Source of the DNA: Clostridiales bacterium
Lineage (GTDB): Bacteria > Bacillota > Clostridia > Oscillospirales > Oscillospiraceae
NCBI GenBank assembly: GCA_029268065.1
Contig: JAJUHC010000016.1
Location: forward strand, 1 to 64,000
Direction: 5' to 3'
DNA: 64,000 nucleotides
Shown here: piece by piece, positions 7,324-64,000 of the stretch
How positions within the stretch are numbered: position 1 is the stretch's first letter
Layout: every line of letters begins with the position of its first letter
Translations under genes and position numbers: made by a program
The notes under the pieces: generated by a model
Seen by the model: the letters and a program-made list of their open reading frames with translations, nothing else
Database searches by the model: none
Told to the model about the DNA's origin: nothing

Positions 7324-8382
7324 TCAGGAAATTTGCGCTTTTCTCTCTATGGGAAGGATGTTAATATAAGTAGTACCCGGCGAGAATATAAGATCGCTTC
7401 CGTCCTTAAGCCTGTATGCAAACTGTGAATCGCAGCTTTTCTTTGTCCAGATTATCTCAACATACTTTCCGTTGCAGGCGTAAATCCCTTCGCCGCTTCC
7501 GACAAGGTCTATATCGAGATGCATGGGGTCGTCCCTTGAAACCGATGAATGCTCCGCGTAAAGGACCAGCAGATTTTTTACAGCCGCCTGTTTTCCTGTA
7601 TTTCCGTCCTTATACGGCTCGCCGTACTGGCTTATGTGGTAAAGCCCGTCGCCGCCGCTGTAATCAAAGATTCCGGTTTTGTAGCCGGAAAACTCAACCT
7701 TTAAGGAGCTTGCCGGAAGTCCGCCCTCCGACGAGGGCTTTCCGAACTTCATATTACAGATATAGCCGTTTTTGTGCTGAAGCTGCTCTACGCTTTTGGA
7801 TATGTTCTCCGCTATAAGCTTTCCGTCGGTAAAGAGGCTGTGCTCGTACCCAAACGACATTCTGCCCTCGTCCCGGTAAAAAATCGTGGAGTTGTAAATG
7901 CCGTCCACATGGATTACCGGTCTCACCTCAAGGGCGTCGTAAGCGTAAACGCTGGCGCCGGCGTGAATCAGAATTGCGTCAAGTCCCTCCGCCAAATCTA
8001 GAAAATAGCTGCGAGTGCTTCTAACCGATCCGATTTTGCCAGCCTTGCCGATGTCCTGGTATACCGCGAGCATCCTGGTTATCCCCCCCTCCGCAAGCAC
8101 CTCGAATATAAGGTCCGCCGAGCCGATGCCGCACTGCGGCTGAGCCTCGATTATGTTATTCAGCATAACGGCGTATGGGCGGTTCCCGGAGAGGTCTTTT
8201 TCCGTTTGCAGCCCAGTCAGGGGGTTGAGGTAAGCAATTGGCGGCGGTGCGGTCGCCGGCGGCGGAGATACCGGGGCCGCTGTTGGCTTCGATGAGGCGG
8301 GCGCGCTTTCCCTCGCTGCAGGCGGACCGCAGGCGGCAAGCAATGCGCCGATCAAAACTGTAAGCATGAGTATTTTTTTCAA
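7324..8382 (-). CDS. DUF3048 (YerB-like) lipoprotein
   Basis: 352 residues with a lipoprotein signal peptide ending in a lipobox (LLAAC, Cys 18), then a Pro/Ala-rich linker of about 30 residues, then the DUF3048 domain, recognised by NPLTGLQTEKDLSGNRPYAV, SADLIFEVLAEGGITR and GSVRSTR. The protein should be tethered to the outer face of the cell membrane. The molecular function of the family is unknown; B. subtilis YerB is the namesake. It appears monocistronic, has its own terminator, and is divergent from the DUF4364 gene across a 157-base gap. Confidence 0.88.
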   Translation of the reverse strand: MKKILMLTVLIGALLAACGPPAARESAPASSKPTAAPVSPPPATAPPPIAYLNPLTGLQTEKDLSGNRPYAVMLNNIIEAQPQCGIGSADLIFEVLAEGGITRMLAVYQDIGKAGKIGSVRSTRSYFLDLAEGLDAILIHAGASVYAYDALEVRPVIHVDGIYNSTIFYRDEGRMSFGYEHSLFTDGKLIAENISKSVEQLQHKNGYICNMKFGKPSSEGGLPASSLKVEFSGYKTGIFDYSGGDGLYHISQYGEPYKDGNTGKQAAVKNLLVLYAEHSSVSRDDPMHLDIDLVGSGEGIYACNGKYVEIIWTKKSCDSQFAYRLKDGSDLIFSPGTTYINILPIERKAQIS

Positions 8383-8459
8383 TTCATCACTTCCAATATT
8401 TGTAATTATGTTTTAGATTATATTATTTCTTTTTTATTTTGTCAAAATATTTTTTGGGA

Positions 8460-55105: not shown

Positions 55106-58100
55106 TTATATCAGCTTTGATTTTTGGAGCAGACGCTCGGCCATGACCGCCACCTCGGCGCGGGTGATATAATACTTCGGGGCAACGGTGCTTGCGGTCT
55201 TTCCGGTGACTACCCCCGCCTTGATGCAGGAGGCTATGCCGCTTTTCGCGTAATCCGAGACTGTGGCCGCGTCCGTATAAGCTCCGAGCAGGCCGCTTAC
55301 GTCGCCTTCGGACAAGTTGACATCGAGACCGGTTATTTTCATCGCTCTCGCAACCATGGTCATTGCCTGCTCACGGGTAATCAGGTCGTTCGGCCCGAAG
55401 GTCTTGTCGTCATACCCTTTTATTATGCCGTACGACGACGCCGTTTTAACATATTTGCAGTACCACGAGGAGGCGTCCACATCGCCGAAGCCGTTGGAAC
55501 CGATTCCGGGTTCAAGTCCGAGGGCCTTTACCATGATGGCCGCAAATTCGGCGCGCGTGATGCTGCGATCCGGGTCGTACTTATTGTCGCCTACTCCGTT
55601 TACGACCATTCTTGACCCCATATTGTTGATCGAGCTCTTAGCCCAATGATTTTCAGCGTCCGTGAATTCGACAGGGTTATAAATCACCGAATAAACGCTG
55701 TTCGTGAGGCTGTTGATCTTTGCGTAGTATTTCCCTCCGATTACGACGACCTCCGTCGGGACGTGCCGCACGCTTCCGTTCGGCTCGACAACGATTCCCG
55801 TTGTGATTTTGCTTGGGTCGACGCCGTCGGGTATCGCAACCATTCTTTCCACATAGGAGTTGAAGGCGCTGACATCAACGGTCTGACCGTTATAGGTGCA
55901 TCTTACCGTAAACTCAACCGCCGGCACCATGATTGCAAATCCCCCGTCATTTGCAGCGTTCTCGACGACTCTCACCGTCGATGCCGGAGGCTCGGATATT
56001 GATACATCCACGCTTATGCTGCCGAGGGATACGTTCTCCCCGAACTTTGCCGATACCGCGTCAATGTTTATTTCAGACGCAGGCAGCGTGTAGGTGGCGG
56101 AATCGGTTCTTATGACAAGAGTCGCTTCCTTGTTTTCCATATTCTTGACAGCCTGCCCGTCAAGCCTGCCGACAGCCGTGTCGGCACCCGTTGTTATCGG
56201 AACCGTGATTGTGGAGCCTCTGGCGGCATTGTTCAGTACATTTTCAATATCCCGCGAGGTCATAGTCACGGTCGTAGTAGTGCCGGACGCCGAGGTCGTT
56301 GTAGTTACTGTTCCCGCCGTCTGAGTCTGTCCCCCGACTTCGACCTTCGCCCCAGTATCGGCGGCGGGCGCCGACGGTCCGCTGGAGCTGCCGCCGGTCG
56401 AGTAGACTTCGACAAGATAGCTTGTGCCGTTCGTGAGTCCCGTTATTTCCGTGCCCGTCAGCGCGGCGGCATCGGACGCGCTTGCCGAAAGCGTCCCGTC
56501 AGCCTTGACGTAATAGACCGCTGAGCCGACGGTGACCTTGTACCTTGTTCCGCTCGTGAGTCCCGTTATTCTCCCGTTGCCCGCCGTTCCGAGGGAGCCT
56601 GAGGCGAGAACGACAGCCGTCGATATTTCTTCGACGAAGTATGTGGAGCCGTTGACCAGGCCGATAAGCTCGGTGCCTGTCAGGGGCGCGGAATAGGCGG
56701 GGTCAAAAGCAAGGTAGCCCGCCGCGGTTGAATATAAGGTGATTCCGCCCATGGTTACCTTATAGGCTTTACCCGAGGTAAGACCGCTTATCGTGCCGTT
56801 GCCGGCGGTGCCGAGGGAGCCGGACGCGAGGTATAAGCTCGCAGCGCTTCCCGTCCTGAGATAGATGTCGGCGGCAAGGTTTAAGAGGATTTCTCCGTTT
56901 ATCGTACTGGAAGCGTTTTGGAGCGAAGCGTCGGGGGTCCACGCGTCAAAGGAGCTTCCACTCATTTCCGAAGCAAGCAGCGCGCAGTTTGAGACGCTGG
57001 TGGAATTCATCTCCACCCCCCTGCCGCTTATGACCCTTATTAACGCCAGGCCGCTCCCGTGAATCGTTTTGCCGAATAACGACGCGCTGAGCGTGTTTGT
57101 GCCGGATACTTTCATTATGGAAACGGCAACTCCGTTGGCGCTTGTGAGCTTCGCTGCGCCAGACAGGGTCAGGCTGGAATTACCTAATGAGGACTGAATT
57201 GTAATTGCCGACATATTGCCGCTGCAGCTTACGCTGCCTCCGCTTATGTCTATGGTACCATCGCTCGAGTTAACAGCGGTTCCTTCAGAGCTGAGGCTGC
57301 CGCCCGTGATATTGATTGTTCCGGCGCCGACATTTGCGATAGCTCCGGCTTTGCCGCTTATGCTGCCGCCGGAAATGGTGACCTGTCCCGAGCCGGTTTT
57401 TGCCAGGGCGATACCGTTTGCCGCGTCCGCAGTTACGGTTCCGCCGCTGATAATCAGCGTTCCGCCGTCCATGCGAATAGTTTGGAAGGGAATGATTATA
57501 CTCGTGCTGCCGGATACCGTCAGATAGCCGGTATTTTGGATCCCGACGCCTCTCGAATCCGTTGAGGTGAAGGTCCCGCCGGAAACGGAAGAGTCTGAGG
57601 AGGCAGAAGCCGAGTTCATGATGCAGACGGTATCCTGCGGAGTCCCGTTTCCTGCCGAGAAGCTTCCTCCGGCGACGGTCATTTTTCCGGCGTTACTTAT
57701 GATTATGCCGTTCGACCCCTCGACATGGAAGGCGCCGCCGTTTATTGTCAGCGTCCCGGTGCCGGAGTCCGTATTTTGATTGTCGATGCAGATAAAGCCC
57801 GTACCGGAGCCCGTAAACGTGCCGTCGTTGATCGTCAAAACGGCTTCGCTTGTCAAGCACCTTGAATTTGCCCCAGAAACCGTAAACGTACCGCCGTTTA
57901 CAGTGAGGCTTTTTCCGTATTTTACATAAACCGCGCTGAAGGAGGTCGGGTTTTCTATCGTCGCGCTGATTTTAACAGCGTCAAAAATAACCGCCCCGCC
58001 AGTTACGAGCCCGACGCCGTCGTTAATCGCAGCATCGTCCAAAATCTCCACATTTCCCAAATAGGTCGCGGGGATAAGCGTATTCGCCGCGTTATTCGAG

Positions 58101-61100
58101 CTGAAGTTCCGTTCGCTTACCCGCAGGGGATTTGTTTCGCTTCCGAGCTGTATGGTGAGCTTTCCGTCAGCTCCGCTGTTTGTGCACGCCGCCAGAGCGG
58201 AGGCGAGGGTCGTATAGGCGCCGGCGCCGTCAACCTGGAAGCTGCTGGGGCCTCCGGTTACGGTATAGTCCGGCTGGACGGCTGCAAGCGTTATGCCCGC
58301 TCCCGCCGTGACGTTCCCGCCGCTCACGACTATTGTGCCGGATACGGACTGTCCGTTGCCTGCCGACGCGCCGATTACTGCGACGTAGCTGCCGTTCGGC
58401 ACCCCCGTGATCGTATAGCTGCCGTCCTGCGCCGTCGTTGCAGTATAAAGGACGTTTGAATACGCCGTGTCGGTCGAGGCGTAGAGCTTAACCGTGAGGC
58501 CTCCGACCGGAGCGCCCGTCGTCCCCGGCAAAACCGTGCCTGATATCGAGTATGTAGCACAAACCGCCGTCAGCGCCACCGCTTTTGAAACGCCGTTCAG
58601 CGACGCGGTCAGGGTAACGCCGCCTCCGCTTATGACCGCAGCGCTGCCGCCGCTCAGGCTGATAACGCTGGTATCGCTCGAAGTCCAATACACGGAGTTT
58701 GTCGTGCAGACCGTGAACGCGGAGCTTACGGAGGAAGCTTTTTCAGTTTGCGAAAGCCTTATCGGCGCAGCCGAGACGTAAGCGGCGTCTGTGGATTCAA
58801 TTCCGGTGAGGCGCGGGTAGAAGTCCGAAGAGAAGGTCCATTTTCCGCTGTCCCAGCCGCTGAATGCCGGGTTGCCGAGCATCTCGGTAGTGAGCTTTCC
58901 GACGGCGGCGCCGTCCGAATCGCTGCCGTTTATCCCGCCGGCCGCGCACATTTGCTTGTCGTAATAGCAGCCTGTTACCGTGCCGCTGCTGCCTCCCGCG
59001 ATGCCGCCTATGTTGGAGCCGCCGCTCACGCCACCTGCGCTGTAACATTCGGACAGGGTGATATTATTATCCATATTCCCCACTACGCCGCCGACTAGTC
59101 TCGTTCCGCTTACCTCACCCGCGTTATAGCAGGCGGATATGGAACCATCGACGAATGATCCAGCCACGCCGCCGACATATTTGACGCCGCTTATGCCGCC
59201 CGCGTTATAGCAATACCGCATCGTTCCGCCGCTGTAGCCCACCACGCCGCCGACGCTGTTGCTGCCCCCGCTGACTCTGCCCATATTGTAGCAGTACTGC
59301 ATTGTGCCCGACATACTGCCTGTTACGCCGCCGACGTATACGTCGGTCGAGCTGACGCTTCCTGTGTTGCGGCAGTTTTCCGCCGTACCGCCTGGGACGG
59401 CACCGATCACGCCGCCGATATTATAGCCGCCGCTAACGCTGCCGCTATTGTAGCAGTTTCTTATTATAGCGCCAGTTCTATTATCGCCCGCCACGCCGCC
59501 GACATAAGCTGTCCCGTTTATAACGCCGGTGTTGTAGCAGTTTTCGATTGTTCCTGAATTACTGCCGACCACAGCTGCTGTATAAAAGTCGCCCTCGATA
59601 TAGCTGTCTGTCACTCCGACATTTTTTACCGTGGCGCCTTCGATAAATCCAAACAGGCCCTGGAAACTGGAGCTGTTTTTGATATAGATTCCGCTTACCT
59701 TGTAACCGTCGCCGTCGAAGACGCCGGTAAATCTACTCGTACTGTTGCCGATCGGCGTCCAGCTGTTCGAGGGTGCGGAAGAGCCCCAGTTTTCGTAATC
59801 CGAGGCGTTTTGATTGAGCACGATATCGGCGCTCAGCTTGTAACAGGCCGAGCTTGCCGGCACGCCGCCGATGCTTGCGCCCGCGTTGACCTGCTGCGCC
59901 ATGTAGGCGAGGTCCGATCCCGACGCTATCAGGAAGGGGTCGGACGAGATTCCGGAGCCGGAAAGGCTCGCGCTGACGGATCCATCCCAGGCGGCCGGCG
60001 CTTCAGGTTGCAGAACGACGTCAGCGCCCGCAGTGACGTTCGCGCCGGCGACGGTGAATTGCCCCGACTCAGACAGCATGTAGCTGCCGGCATGCGCCGC
60101 AACTACGGCTAAGTATGTTCCGTTGGGCACCTCGGTGATTTCAAAGAAGCCCTTAACGTCCGTTGTGTCGGAATAGCTTGTGGGTGCCCCTGAGGAATAG
60201 AGCGTTACGGTGATTCCGCCGACAGAGGCGCCGGTCGTGTTCGCATACACCCTGCCGGAGACTACGAAGCTTGTGCATAACTGTACGTTATAGGTCGTGC
60301 CGTTTGTAAGCCCCGTAATCGCGGTTCCAATCAGCGGCGCGGCGTCTGCCGCGTTTGCAGTCAGCGTCCCGTCCGCCATGACGTAATAGGTGTCGGAGCC
60401 GGAGGTGACCTTGTATACCCTGCCGGAGTCGAGCCCCGTGACCGTCTTGTCTCCGGCTGTTCCGAGAGAGCCGGAAGCGAGAGATACTGCGGCGGTATAT
60501 TCCTCGACCAGGTAAGTTGTGCCGTTAAGAAGTCCCGTTATGGACGTACCGACAAGCGCTCCGCAAAGCGAGGCTTCGCTAGTAAGCGTACCGTCCGACT
60601 GTACATAATAAACATTCGAGCCTGAGGTGACCTTATAGGCTTTGCCCGAGGTCAGCCCGGTTATCGTGCAGTCGCCTGCCGTACCGAGGGATCCCGGCGC
60701 AAGGATCACCGTTTTGGGCCGGACTTTGAGATAAATGTCCGTCACCGACGCGTTGGCGCCGCTTGTCAGGTTTGAGATCGAATCCCCGTTCGTTGCGCTA
60801 ATAAGGCTTGCGAGAGCGGAGTCGCTCGCCCAGCCGACGAAATCCATGTTGCCGTCTATGCCGGATGCGGTTACAACGGCATCCGTGTAATCGGCGCTGC
60901 TTATCTTTTTCAGGGAGTCGCCCGGGTCGGTTTTTCCCGTTATGCTTATGGCCCCACCCGTGCTGTTGTGTATGGTCTTACCAAACAGGGAGAGACTTCC
61001 CGTGTGCGTATAGTTCGTGTTGAGCTTAGAAAACGATATCGTACGGGCCGATACCGAGCTGAGCACCGCGCTGCCGCTTACCGAGGCGGTAACGCTTGTG

Positions 61101-62575
61101 CCGTTCAAGGTATACGGCCAAATATACACGGCCGGTCCCGAGGTTCCCGTGCACTTCACTTCGCCTCCGCTGATGCTCAGTGTCCCGCTGAGTGTCCCGC
61201 TGAGCTGAGACAAAGCGCCGCTCTGCGCTCCGGAAATTGTTCCTCCGCTTATATTCAAGGTTCCGCCCTGATGATTTATGCCGTTCGCGGAGGAGGATGT
61301 AAATGTGCCGCTTTCGATGGTGGTCTTGCCTTCGCCGTGTTTGTATATGGAGTCGTTGGCCGCCGATATGCTGGCTTCCTTGATATACAGCGAACCGTTG
61401 CCGCTGGTTACGGTTCCGCTGTCGTATATTGCCCTATACCCGGACGTTATGCTCGTATGTGTTCCGGAAATCGAAACCGACGAGCCTCCCTCAATATATA
61501 CAGCATATGAATTAATGCCTGTTCCCGAGCATTCTATCGCAGTGTTATCCCCGATTGTGACTGTCGCTTCGGAAGCTCTTATCACATTGGCGGAGGCCGA
61601 GCCTGACGTGTTTGAAGCCTTCAGGCTGCAGCCTTCAAACGACACTGACGAGTTGGCGGCGGATACGGCGTAGCCGGTCGTGCCCGTCGCCTCTATCGTG
61701 CCGCCCGTAACGGTCAGGCTGGAGGACGAAATGTTGTTTACGGGCGTCTTGTTTGACGATATATAGGTTGGAACTAAGTGATCCGCTTCTGAAATCGTTA
61801 CCGTACCGCTATTATAAATCGCATAATAGCTGCCGCTGTTACTTATTGTGCCTCCAGATATGGCGGCGGTACACGAAGTTACGTTATATAGGCACACGGT
61901 GTAGGATCCGGATGAGCTTATGGTGCCCGCTGACATATTGAATATGTTATTATTATACACCACATACGAATAACTTCCGCTGGCTGAGATTGTGCTCCCG
62001 GAGCCCGAGACGTTAACCGTGCCGTCGTTAGCAATACCGTAGGATTTTTCCCCGAAAACCGTGAGGGCGGTGTTTCCCGTAATATTCAGGGCGCCGCCGT
62101 TTTTCACACTCAGCAATTTAAACAAATTGGAATTTCCGATAGCCGATGACATCTCTAAATCGAGGAAGGTCGCCGTCACACCAGCCGGGATTATAATGGC
62201 GGCACCGGCAGAAACAGCGGCATCATCCGACACCGTGATAGCGCCAATATAGGTTGCGCTCATATTCAGCGAATAGGTGTTGCTACCGTCAGTGACCTCG
62301 TAAATGCTCAGAGGCGTTCCCGCGCCGCCGAACTGGATCACCGTTGTTCCGTCTCCGTTGCCGTCCGAGCAGCCGGAAACAGCGTCCGAAAAGGTGAGGC
62401 CGCTCGTTGTTGCGGCGCTTGAGCAGTTGCTTAGTGCAAAGGCGCCGCCGTCGTTGGTTATTATAAAGTCCGCGGTCGGCGCAGGGTCCGCTTTCGCGGG
62501 AAGCGATATCCCCGTGAATAGCGAAATCATGATTGACAGGGTCAGGACAACGCTTAAGATTTTTTTAGCCTTCAT
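55106..62575 (-). CDS. Giant S-layer-anchored (SLH) mosaic surface protein
   Basis: 2489 residues from the ATG at 62575 (AAAGGAG upstream; the track adds ten codons). Order: signal peptide cut after PAKA (about 29); parallel beta-helix-type repeats rich in G/S/T (about 45-600); two SLGTAG repeats (about 622-770); a carboxypeptidase-regulatory-like beta-sandwich (GRVYANTTGASVGGITVTLY); eight GLUG-like repeats (about 990-1210); a Big-like domain; a second carboxypeptidase-like domain (GTVLPGTTGAPVGGLTV); a second beta-helix; two more SLGTAG repeats (about 1913-2058); a linker region; three SLH domains (about 2302-2489). The SLH domains should bind pyruvylated wall polymer. Function is probably adhesion or glycan binding. 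It follows a degenerate receiver gene by 30 bases. Confidence 0.9.
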   Translation of the reverse strand: MKAKKILSVVLTLSIMISLFTGISLPAKADPAPTADFIITNDGGAFALSNCSSAATTSGLTFSDAVSGCSDGNGDGTTVIQFGGAGTPLSIYEVTDGSNTYSLNMSATYIGAITVSDDAAVSAGAAIIIPAGVTATFLDLEMSSAIGNSNLFKLLSVKNGGALNITGNTALTVFGEKSYGIANDGTVNVSGSGSTISASGSYSYVVYNNNIFNMSAGTISSSGSYTVCLYNVTSCTAAISGGTISNSGSYYAIYNSGTVTISEADHLVPTYISSNKTPVNNISSSSLTVTGGTIEATGTTGYAVSAANSSVSFEGCSLKASNTSGSASANVIRASEATVTIGDNTAIECSGTGINSYAVYIEGGSSVSISGTHTSITSGYRAIYDSGTVTSGNGSLYIKEASISAANDSIYKHGEGKTTIESGTFTSSSANGINHQGGTLNISGGTISGAQSGALSQLSGTLSGTLSISGGEVKCTGTSGPAVYIWPYTLNGTSVTASVSGSAVLSSVSARTISFSKLNTNYTHTGSLSLFGKTIHNSTGGAISITGKTDPGDSLKKISSADYTDAVVTASGIDGNMDFVGWASDSALASLISATNGDSISNLTSGANASVTDIYLKVRPKTVILAPGSLGTAGDCTITGLTSGKAYKVTSGSNVYYVQSDGTLTSEASLCGALVGTSITGLLNGTTYLVEEYTAAVSLASGSLGTAGDKTVTGLDSGRVYKVTSGSDTYYVMADGTLTANAADAAPLIGTAITGLTNGTTYNVQLCTSFVVSGRVYANTTGASVGGITVTLYSSGAPTSYSDTTDVKGFFEITEVPNGTYLAVVAAHAGSYMLSESGQFTVAGANVTAGADVVLQPEAPAAWDGSVSASLSGSGISSDPFLIASGSDLAYMAQQVNAGASIGGVPASSACYKLSADIVLNQNASDYENWGSSAPSNSWTPIGNSTSRFTGVFDGDGYKVSGIYIKNSSSFQGLFGFIEGATVKNVGVTDSYIEGDFYTAAVVGSNSGTIENCYNTGVINGTAYVGGVAGDNRTGAIIRNCYNSGSVSGGYNIGGVIGAVPGGTAENCRNTGSVSSTDVYVGGVTGSMSGTMQYCYNMGRVSGGSNSVGGVVGYSGGTMRYCYNAGGISGVKYVGGVAGSFVDGSISACYNAGEVSGTRLVGGVVGNMDNNITLSECYSAGGVSGGSNIGGIAGGSSGTVTGCYYDKQMCAAGGINGSDSDGAAVGKLTTEMLGNPAFSGWDSGKWTFSSDFYPRLTGIESTDAAYVSAAPIRLSQTEKASSVSSAFTVCTTNSVYWTSSDTSVISLSGGSAAVISGGGVTLTASLNGVSKAVALTAVCATYSISGTVLPGTTGAPVGGLTVKLYASTDTAYSNVLYTATTAQDGSYTITGVPNGSYVAVIGASAGNGQSVSGTIVVSGGNVTAGAGITLAAVQPDYTVTGGPSSFQVDGAGAYTTLASALAACTNSGADGKLTIQLGSETNPLRVSERNFSSNNAANTLIPATYLGNVEILDDAAINDGVGLVTGGAVIFDAVKISATIENPTSFSAVYVKYGKSLTVNGGTFTVSGANSRCLTSEAVLTINDGTFTGSGTGFICIDNQNTDSGTGTLTINGGAFHVEGSNGIIISNAGKMTVAGGSFSAGNGTPQDTVCIMNSASASSDSSVSGGTFTSTDSRGVGIQNTGYLTVSGSTSIIIPFQTIRMDGGTLIISGGTVTADAANGIALAKTGSGQVTISGGSISGKAGAIANVGAGTINITGGSLSSEGTAVNSSDGTIDISGGSVSCSGNMSAITIQSSLGNSSLTLSGAAKLTSANGVAVSIMKVSGTNTLSASLFGKTIHGSGLALIRVISGRGVEMNSTSVSNCALLASEMSGSSFDAWTPDASLQNASSTINGEILLNLAADIYLRTGSAASLYLASGSLGTAGNGTISGLTSGKAYKVTMGGITLYSTAAGYLAFDPAYSAPLTGTELIGLVNGSTYFVEEISTAVVLASGSLGTAGNGRITGLTSGTRYKVTVGSAVYYVKADGTLSASASDAAALTGTEITGLTNGTSYLVEVYSTGGSSSGPSAPAADTGAKVEVGGQTQTAGTVTTTTSASGTTTTVTMTSRDIENVLNNAARGSTITVPITTGADTAVGRLDGQAVKNMENKEATLVIRTDSATYTLPASEINIDAVSAKFGENVSLGSISVDVSISEPPASTVRVVENAANDGGFAIMVPAVEFTVRCTYNGQTVDVSAFNSYVERMVAIPDGVDPSKITTGIVVEPNGSVRHVPTEVVVIGGKYYAKINSLTNSVYSVIYNPVEFTDAENHWAKSSINNMGSRMVVNGVGDNKYDPDRSITRAEFAAIMVKALGLEPGIGSNGFGDVDASSWYCKYVKTASSYGIIKGYDDKTFGPNDLITREQAMTMVARAMKITGLDVNLSEGDVSGLLGAYTDAATVSDYAKSGIASCIKAGVVTGKTASTVAPKYYITRAEVAVMAERLLQKSKLI
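56402..56838 (-). repeat. SLGTAG repeats 3 and 4 in the SLH gene
   Basis: Two tandem units of about 70 residues, each starting LASGSLGTAGNG and ending LTNGT.Y.VE-like. They pair with copies 1 and 2 some 1,150 residues earlier in the protein. Confidence 0.85.
58950..59610 (-). repeat. GLUG-like repeat block (eight units)
   Basis: Units of about 27 residues with the pattern NCYN.G.VSG...VGGV.G, a beta-helical GLUG repeat found in secreted adhesins. Aromatic/Cys core positions are kept in all eight units. Confidence 0.85.
60281..60710 (-). repeat. SLGTAG repeats 1 and 2 in the SLH gene
   Basis: Two tandem units of about 70 residues: PGSLGTAGDCTITGL and SGSLGTAGDKTVTGL starts, each followed by KVTSGS.. 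YYV..DGTL. The same unit recurs at 56402-56838. Confidence 0.85.
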
Positions 62576-62605
62576 CAAATAATTCTCCTTTCGTGTTCGC
62601 TGCAC

Positions 62606-62962
62606 TCATTTTTGACCTTTAATATAGTTGTTTATTTTTTCTTTTGTAAGCGGGTATGTAAGATACCCATAGGCCCCGACTTCATATGCGTCCACCGCGT
62701 AGCGCTCGTCCTCCGCAATAAACACAATCCTTATGTCCGTACTTATCTTCCGAACCGCTTCGGCGGCCTTAAAGCCAGGTATTCCGTCCCTCCCCAGCCT
62801 GATGAAGCAATAATCCGGCGGGGTGCTTCCCGTCTGCTCGAGGAACCCGACCCAATCGTCAAAGACGAGAATGCCGTCAACGCTTTTGCACTCGGAAAGC
62901 CGGCTGAGCATTTGAGTCCGTGCTTTTCCCCGCTCGTCCAGTACATATACCCTCAAATGCAT
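62606..62962 (-). CDS. Degenerate (pseudo-)receiver domain protein
   Basis: 118 residues from the ATG at 62962, with AGGGGGGGAGG upstream. It has the receiver fold pattern (VYVLDERG acid pair, VFIAEDERYAVDAYEVGAYGYL), but the phospho-Asp position in PDYCFIRL is Arg, the Thr/Ser after beta-4 is Ala (VFIAE) and the beta-5 Lys is Tyr (YPLT for KP). It therefore cannot be phosphorylated in the normal way. Its C-terminal half aligns well with the receiver of the SARP regulator encoded upstream ([17 protein letters not shown]), suggesting duplication. It lies 30 bases before the SLH giant, probably on one transcript. Confidence 0.8.
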   Translation of the reverse strand: MHLRVYVLDERGKARTQMLSRLSECKSVDGILVFDDWVGFLEQTGSTPPDYCFIRLGRDGIPGFKAAEAVRKISTDIRIVFIAEDERYAVDAYEVGAYGYLTYPLTKEKINNYIKGQK

Positions 62963-63006
62963 GCCTCCCCCCCTTACGCAATTTTGCATGATTCCATTTT
63001 TTGGGG

Positions 63007-63015
63007 ATTATATCA
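63007..63015 (-). promoter_or_regulatory. Extended -10 promoter of the pseudo-receiver/SLH unit
   Basis: TGATATAAT on the minus strand (TG-n-TATAAT), about 45 bases before the pseudo-receiver ATG; no good -35 was seen. Confidence 0.5.
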
Positions 63016-63060
63016 TCCGGTTTTCTACAATTTTTCCACAAGAAAAAATTGAAACAGGAA

Positions 63061-63101
63061 AAAAGCCGAAATTCCGTCACGCATCGACGAAATTTCGGCT
63101 T
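63061..63101 (-). terminator. Terminator after the SARP regulator
   Basis: An 11-bp perfect stem (AAGCCGAAATT / AATTTCGGCTT) with an inner CGTC/GACG helix and a T-tract on the minus strand. Confidence 0.85.
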
Positions 63102-63143
63102 CAAACAAAAAATTCTATTAAAACTTCCAGCCGCAGCCGGCTT

Positions 63144-64000
63144 TTATTGCTCAATCAGCTCCTGAAGCTTTTTCTCAGGCTTTATTCCAAGCTCCTTCTC
63201 AAGGAAATCGGCGTAGGTCTTAAAATGCCTTATTGCGCTGCCCTTGTTTCCGCTTTCCCTGTAAAGTATGAGCAGAAGCTCGGAAATCTCCTCCAGATAA
63301 GGGTTCGCGTTGTAGGCCTTGAGCAAAACCCTCTCCGCTTTATCGTACAGCTTCTCCCCTATGTAGCTCTTTGAAAGCTCGAGGACGCACTGGTCGTAGA
63401 GCCTGGACAGTCTTTCGCTTTCAAAATCCGACCAGGGATAGAATTCTCCCTCCAGGTAGGAAGCCGTGTAAAGCTCCTCCATTTCCTCAAGCGCTTTGCT
63501 TCTGTTGCCGCCGCTTTTCTCAAAAAGCTCGCAAAATCGCTCCACGTCCCAGTCGACAGAGCCGCACTTCAGAGAATAGCTGCTGTTCATGCTAATCAGA
63601 TCGCCGTCGATTCCATACGCGTTAAGCGCTTTTCGGATGTAATAGCTGCTGTTGTAAAGCTGCTTGACCGCTTTCTCCGGATCGTCCTCCGGCCACAGCC
63701 TGTCCAAAAGCTCGTCCTTTGAAATACTCCGTCCGTGATTTTGAAGCAGATACGCGAAGAGCTCCCTGGCTTTCTCTATCCGCCATTTTATCGGCTCCTG
63801 CCCTTCCCAGCCCATCCGGAACCTTCCAAAGCACCGTATCTGGAGCTTTGAACCACGCCGCTCTCTTCTGAGAGGGGATTTTCCCCTCAAACGCTCGACA
63901 GTTTTCTCCAGGCGCTCTTCCGTAATCGGCTTCAGCAGATAATCCATGGCGTGAAGCTCGAATGCCTCGACCGCATACTGGTCGTAGGCCGTCACGAAAA
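63144..64000 (-). CDS. SARP-type response regulator (receiver-wHTH-BTAD), 5' end outside window
   Basis: The open frame runs to the window edge, so the start and most of the receiver are missing. What is visible: the receiver end [30 protein letters not shown]-like with the normal Thr and Lys, a winged-helix DNA-binding domain ([34 protein letters not shown]) and a bacterial transcriptional activator domain with TPR-like helices ([27 protein letters not shown]). It resembles the SARP/BTAD regulators of Clostridia. It is a good candidate to control the SLH locus next to it. Confidence 0.85.

Follow-up and report, generated by a model that had tools for sequence, protein, structure and literature searches.

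A phosphorylation-dead lone receiver heads the predicted output operon of a kinase/SARP pair and recurs in a surface-protein cassette of Bacillota

Genes at the locus

The window is a stretch of 64,000 nucleotides, positions 1 to 64,000 of contig JAJUHC010000016.1 from a Clostridiales bacterium (assembly GCA_029268065.1). Near its end, on the minus strand, lie genes for a regulator, a lone receiver-like protein, and a giant surface protein; a sensor kinase gene is present in the adjoining contig sequence. The kinase (625 aa, contig positions 64251-66128) consists of a 7TMR-DISM membrane part and LytS-type His_kinase and HATPase domains, and its gene precedes that of the regulator, at a distance of 15 nt. 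The regulator, REC-SARP (63144 to 64000, continuing to contig position 64235, minus strand), contains a receiver (REC), an OmpR-type DNA-binding domain (DBD), and a BTAD, as assigned by Pfam on the part within the window. The full protein on the contig has 363 aa, and its alignment reveals intact Asp, Thr, and Lys residues.

The lone receiver-like protein (62606 to 62962, minus strand) has 118 aa when translation is taken to start at the ATG at 62962, which has a ribosome binding site (RBS); the longest listed open reading frame begins 9 codons further upstream. The protein matches Pfam Response_reg (PF00072) at 4.1e-7, with 30.6 bits versus a curated cut-off of 30.2. Its AlphaFold2 model (mean pLDDT 81, pTM 0.78) has the β1-α1...β5-α5 order of a (βα)5 receiver, and Foldseek matches the model to the solved receivers CheY, Spo0F, KdpE, and NarL with TM of about 0.7-0.76. 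Thus, the receiver fold suspected in a first-pass annotation of the sequence was obtained by structure prediction.

Alignment with the neighboring REC-SARP places Arg55 (codon 62798-62800, minus strand) at the phospho-Asp position, Ala83 (codon 62714-62716, minus strand) at that of Thr, and Tyr103 (codon 62654-62656, minus strand) at that of Lys, confirming all three substitutions on which that annotation had based its view of a phosphorylation-dead receiver. The phospho-acceptor Asp, the Thr/Ser, and the Lys are all absent; an acidic pair (D9/E10) and the aromatic residue at K-3 (Tyr100) are retained. The protein is a pseudo-receiver, that is, a recognized receiver without the active-site residues. 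Its likeness to the SARP receiver in the segment YAVDAYEVGAYGYL, which the annotation had pointed out, is real but is common to this type of receiver generally rather than specific to the pair.

Downstream lies the gene for the surface protein (55106 to 62575, minus strand; 2489 aa), which has a signal peptide, CarboxypepD_reg-like domains, and three C-terminal SLH domains. The junction from the pseudo-receiver stop codon to the surface-gene ATG (62576 to 62608, minus strand) includes the RBS AAAGGAG and a gap of 30 nt.

Recurrence of the cassette

The arrangement of 7TM sensor kinase, REC-SARP, pseudo-receiver, and surface protein is a recurrent four-gene cassette with two copies in this genome. 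The second copy, on contig C6, encodes a kinase, a REC-SARP, a pseudo-receiver that is 47-50% identical to that of the window and also has Arg for Asp, and then a 1433-aa SLH protein. Further cassettes occur in L023, L024, L025 (Syntrophomonas palmitatica, whose contig starts within the SARP gene), G1134, and G1136; G940, G1024, and G932 have divergent versions. The linkage seen at first in the window alone therefore recurs, both in this genome and in other Bacillota. No description of such a cassette came up in literature searches.

A single-sequence search in the window's family returned, besides the genome's own two copies, full-length regulators only, and profile searches were adopted. These detected a pseudo-receiver in three of the class sample and four of the phylum sample, and in no other sampled genome of the window's family and order. 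A scan of a genome collection covering 84,980 species added three pseudo-receivers, that of S. palmitatica included, and inspection of REC-SARP neighborhoods yielded the divergent lineages G940b/G1024b and G1215, plus one member in G932. With a diverse 12-member profile, half of the genomes yield ordinary receivers at 1e-12, and most pseudo-receivers are separated from the rest by a clear gap (about 3e-36 to 3e-22); the G932 member, which falls amid ordinary receivers at 1e-18, was identified from its residues and context. The spread of the pseudo-receiver is patchy.

Among 16 pseudo-receivers the Asp position is occupied by Arg in 14, by Lys in one, and by Pro in one, and never by Asp. None of the 16 has the β5 Lys, Thr is replaced by Ala or Ser, and the K-3 aromatic residue is present in each of the 15 that were tabulated. 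Gene order varies: in G799 the pseudo-receiver gene lies downstream of the giant gene, and orphan copies occur in G940a/G1024a and G769. The orphans in L087 and L088 (about 7992-8407) retain a SARP-type promoter without a surface gene, with a hairpin folded for L087, while the orphan at L072:9718-10218 adjoins an IstB-like gene at the contig end. Many cassettes of kinase, REC-SARP, and surface gene, such as L107, L130, L138, and L142, contain no lone receiver at all; thus, a lone receiver is not required for the switch.

Predicted transcription units

Between REC-SARP and the pseudo-receiver lies an intrinsic terminator (63062 to 63102, minus strand), a 41-nt hairpin with an 18-bp stem and a T tail, at about -25 kcal/mol. 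It is followed by a SARP-type promoter (63007 to 63039, minus strand) in which the direct repeats GTGGAAA and GTAGAAA, at an 11-bp pitch, precede a TATAAT (63007-63012) located about 44 nt ahead of the pseudo-receiver ATG. SARPs are reported to bind to direct repeats spaced 11 bp apart, of which the 3' one is 8 bp from the -10 element (PMC10936776). The window site agrees with this spacing rule, the distance from the 3' repeat to the -10 element being 9 bp in the 7-mer frame used here, and it is the only strict SARP-type site on either strand of the window. A search for a SARP-type operator upstream of the window's own kinase gene, as would be expected for autoregulation, found none.

In the various cassettes 140-400 bp, approximately, separate REC-SARP from the pseudo-receiver, and side-by-side comparison of these stretches reveals 7-bp direct repeats at an 11-bp pitch, followed by TATAAT. 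The repeats are GGTTAAA/GGTGAAA in C6, GATGAAA twice in L023, GGTGAAA/GGTGAGA in G1134, GGTGAAA twice in G854, GGGAGAA in G1136 and G940a, and GTTTAGT twice in G940b. In dinucleotide shuffles every pseudo-receiver promoter tested gave p <= 0.003; the repeat rule was taken from the literature, and the permitted spacer range (7-10 bp) was fixed after the sites had been seen. The G932 stretch contains the 11-bp repeat ATTTAGGG twice, with a weak -10 element under the scan threshold. Such a site is also present ahead of the surface gene in the G1155, G978, and G1082 cassettes, which have no pseudo-receiver (p 0.003-0.015, shuffles). A joint pattern of the genome's two sites, with two mismatches allowed, has 2 matches in the 2.44-Mb genome, both before pseudo-receiver genes, and the reversed-pattern control has 0; as the pattern was derived from these same two sites, the count measures specificity and is not an independent discovery. 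Folding places a terminator hairpin ahead of the promoter in the window, C6, L024, L025, G1134, and G940a. In G1134 a second SARP-type site (GGTGAAA/GATGAAA, TATACT) lies after the pseudo-receiver and before genes for secreted proteins (L085:5606-6038).

Given the intervening terminator and separate promoter, REC-SARP and the pseudo-receiver are probably not on one transcript. The order of terminator and then promoter makes the kinase and REC-SARP one predicted unit, and the pseudo-receiver and surface protein another. Cotranscription of the latter two genes, an assertion of the first-pass annotation, is upheld by the 30-nt gap and the promoter directly before the pseudo-receiver, and by the other cassettes, in most of which the two genes are close or overlapping (overlapping in several). 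This second unit is likely the target of the kinase/REC-SARP unit, as judged from the predicted operator, and the pseudo-receiver gene is likely the first gene of REC-SARP's predicted output operon.

Origin, selection, and transfer

The first-pass annotation had derived the pseudo-receiver from a local duplication of the adjacent SARP receiver. A phylogeny of 111 domains, taken from SARP, LytR-type, hybrid-kinase, and lone receivers, groups the 15 pseudo-receivers included in one clade with support of 100/99, which becomes 99/86 after the active-site columns are dropped (15 rows). With a sixteenth pseudo-receiver (113 domains), all 16, from Bacillota genomes, form one clade (100/96) apart from all SARP receivers; pseudo-receivers are fast-evolving, and long-branch attraction could tighten this clade. 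The AU test rejects a sister relationship between the window pseudo-receiver and the adjacent SARP receiver (p 1.8e-5, and 8e-5 without the active-site columns), and its nearest relatives are pseudo-receivers of other genomes. Consequently, a recent local duplication followed by decay, although the two proteins belong to one receiver superfamily with a similar α4-β5 segment and comparable events did occur in other cassettes, is rejected and is the least credible of all the readings considered here. The test does not reject a common clade that joins the pseudo-receivers to the SARP receivers of the cassettes (p 0.12); thus, they may have arisen anciently from such a receiver.

The comparable events concern four lone receivers with intact sites (G1005, G1074 twice, and G989), located within or next to the output operon in further REC-SARP cassettes (L135:6050-6403, L137:8449-8856, L140:11900-12307, and L143:8263-8649). 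Three of the four are situated between the SARP and surface genes, and the other after the surface gene. In the 111-domain tree they fall into two groups, each sister to the SARP receivers of its own cassette type. On this phylogeny, local duplication produced intact lone receivers at least twice, independently of the pseudo-receiver clade. These proteins could possibly serve as phosphate sinks, and the arrival of a lone receiver in such cassettes by separate events suggests that this position has a function.

As judged from substitution rates, the pseudo-receiver is under purifying selection. Among C6-type pseudo-receivers dN/dS is 0.25-0.27, versus 0.26 for their SARPs, and between the orphan pseudo-receivers of G940 and G1024 it is 0.08. 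Pairwise distances among pseudo-receivers correlate with those among their SARPs (r 0.94, Mantel p 0.0002), which indicates that the two travel together, not that they are in contact; shared inheritance alone may explain it. The C6 cassette shares 93-95% DNA identity with its S. palmitatica counterpart (L009:1391-9382 versus L025), and the alignment breaks off about 170 bp beyond the surface gene, which suggests that the C6-type cassette was transferred horizontally. Alternatively, a binning error of contig C6 may lie behind the S. palmitatica-like cassette.

Proposed mechanism and alternatives

The recurrence of the four genes in distant bacteria suggests a built-in feedback part that is independent of phosphate. 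The locus can be read as a self-contained surface-display cassette in which the pseudo-receiver provides phosphorylation-independent, output-encoded feedback on the kinase/SARP pair, probably as a brake (a probability of roughly 0.55). The 7TM sensor kinase would phosphorylate REC-SARP, which would then bind to the two direct repeats with the 11-bp pitch that occupy the place of a -35 box; this binding, like the direction and the target of the feedback, is inferred rather than observed. As the anatomy of the locus strongly implies, bound SARP would turn on the two-gene operon for the pseudo-receiver and the giant SLH protein. The pseudo-receiver, unable to accept phosphate, would accumulate in proportion to output and would most likely bind either the transmitter domain of the kinase or the receiver of the SARP, probably restraining expression of the surface protein. 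Several findings count against this reading: many cassettes of this kind have no lone receiver, the orphan copies in G940a/G1024a and G769 lack the setting of the cassette, and the kinase is of the LytS/7TMR-DISM type and not of the CckA type, unlike that of the known system that it would most resemble (Osp, below). The first-pass annotation had conjectured a role in feedback, as a decoy or as a dimer partner. Although still conjectural, such a role is better founded than from the window alone, given the gene's place in the operon that the SARP is predicted to control and the wide recurrence of the cassette.

The foremost alternative, though an unlikely one, is dimerization of the pseudo-receiver with the SARP receiver by way of the α4-β5 face, which would stabilize an active form and give positive feedback, an idea modeled on BldM/WhiI or CmrRST. 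Heterodimer models are listed in a review (PMC12632262), conservation within the family is highest in α4 and β5, and the K-3 aromatic residue is kept. However, the same segment is conserved across LytR-type receivers generally, a SARP on its box is a side-by-side dimer (PMC10936776), and a partner without a DBD would be likelier to poison it than to help. Less probable still is a sensor role, in which a small ligand or anion would occupy the Arg-filled pocket and the protein would convey the presence of a metabolite to the kinase, the SARP, or another target. The pseudo-receiver domain of the kinase ShkA is described as binding c-di-GMP (PMC7010744), and here Arg is conserved in the formerly acidic pocket, but the surrounding residues are variable, and beyond the Arg/Gly there is no evident conserved pocket of the ligand type. 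That the short gene is a mere translational leader for the large one, its protein inert, would fit the short or overlapping junctions but is very improbable given that the protein is under purifying selection (dN/dS 0.25 and 0.08), that orphans are retained without a surface gene, and that the G799 gene sits after the giant.

Beyond the preferred feedback reading of this locus, a wider proposal can be made only tentatively, at somewhat less than even odds. The Asp-to-Arg pseudo-receivers may be an undescribed single-domain family that is dedicated to feedback in SARP-type two-component systems and encoded with their output, spread horizontally in one cassette with a giant surface protein, the kinase, and the regulator. 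In this view the gain of Arg and the loss of Lys would jointly constitute a charge swap that locks the receiver in one conformation.

Relation to known systems

The closest parallel is Osp of Rhodobacter sphaeroides, a receiver-like protein that is activated by CtrA and that, unphosphorylated, binds to the transmitter domain of CckA and inhibits its kinase activity (PMC9430884). Like the window protein as interpreted here, Osp stands alone, lacks key active-site residues, is activated by the system's own regulator, and acts unphosphorylated (PMC9430884); the counterpart of activation by its own regulator would be the predicted SARP-type operator before the pseudo-receiver gene. Unlike the window protein, which has Arg, a predicted surface-protein operon, and a LytS-type kinase, Osp retains Asp51 and targets a hybrid kinase. 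The likeness would be one of design.

Other bacterial pseudo-receivers and Asp-less receivers share a receiver fold without the phosphotransfer residues, but the common replacement of Asp is Glu (PMC12632262), whereas here Arg is nearly fixed and the protein is cassette-bound and has a single domain. CmrRST of Clostridioides difficile likewise combines a kinase, a normal regulator, and a pseudo-receiver protein at one locus (PMC12632262); CmrT, however, is an OmpR-family regulator with its own DBD, while the window protein is a receiver only, on the predicted output transcript. AfsR and other SARP activators have the OmpR-type DBD, the BTAD, and 11-bp direct repeats upstream of the -10 element (PMC10936776), but here REC comes first, the regulator is paired with a 7TM kinase, and it is predicted to act on an operon for a surface protein in Bacillota. 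The window protein belongs to a cassette-bound, single-domain Asp-to-Arg family that heads a SARP-type predicted output operon. This operon would provide a SARP operator and target outside Actinobacteria and would link SARPs to surface proteins.

The mode of action of bacterial pseudo-receivers is called a mystery in a 2025 review (PMC12632262). The cassette, in which kinase, regulator, predicted operator, pseudo-receiver, and output are found together, is a compact and naturally replicated test case; it is also carried by a named species, Syntrophomonas palmitatica JCM 14374, and cassettes with an intact lone receiver, or without any, are natural controls. Other variants of the cassette differ in their gene content. 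A RelE/ParE-like toxin gene on the opposite strand lies between REC-SARP and the pseudo-receiver at L111:5153-5470 and L147:5358-5931, with a likely antitoxin gene in L147. In G799 the giant protein ends in dockerin-like repeats, as seen by eye (L109:6079-12001, L073:2-11099), and the gene after that of the pseudo-receiver encodes a protein in which Pfam detects a cohesin domain. The two proteins resemble a cellulosome pair, and the same SARP-type promoter is predicted upstream of both.
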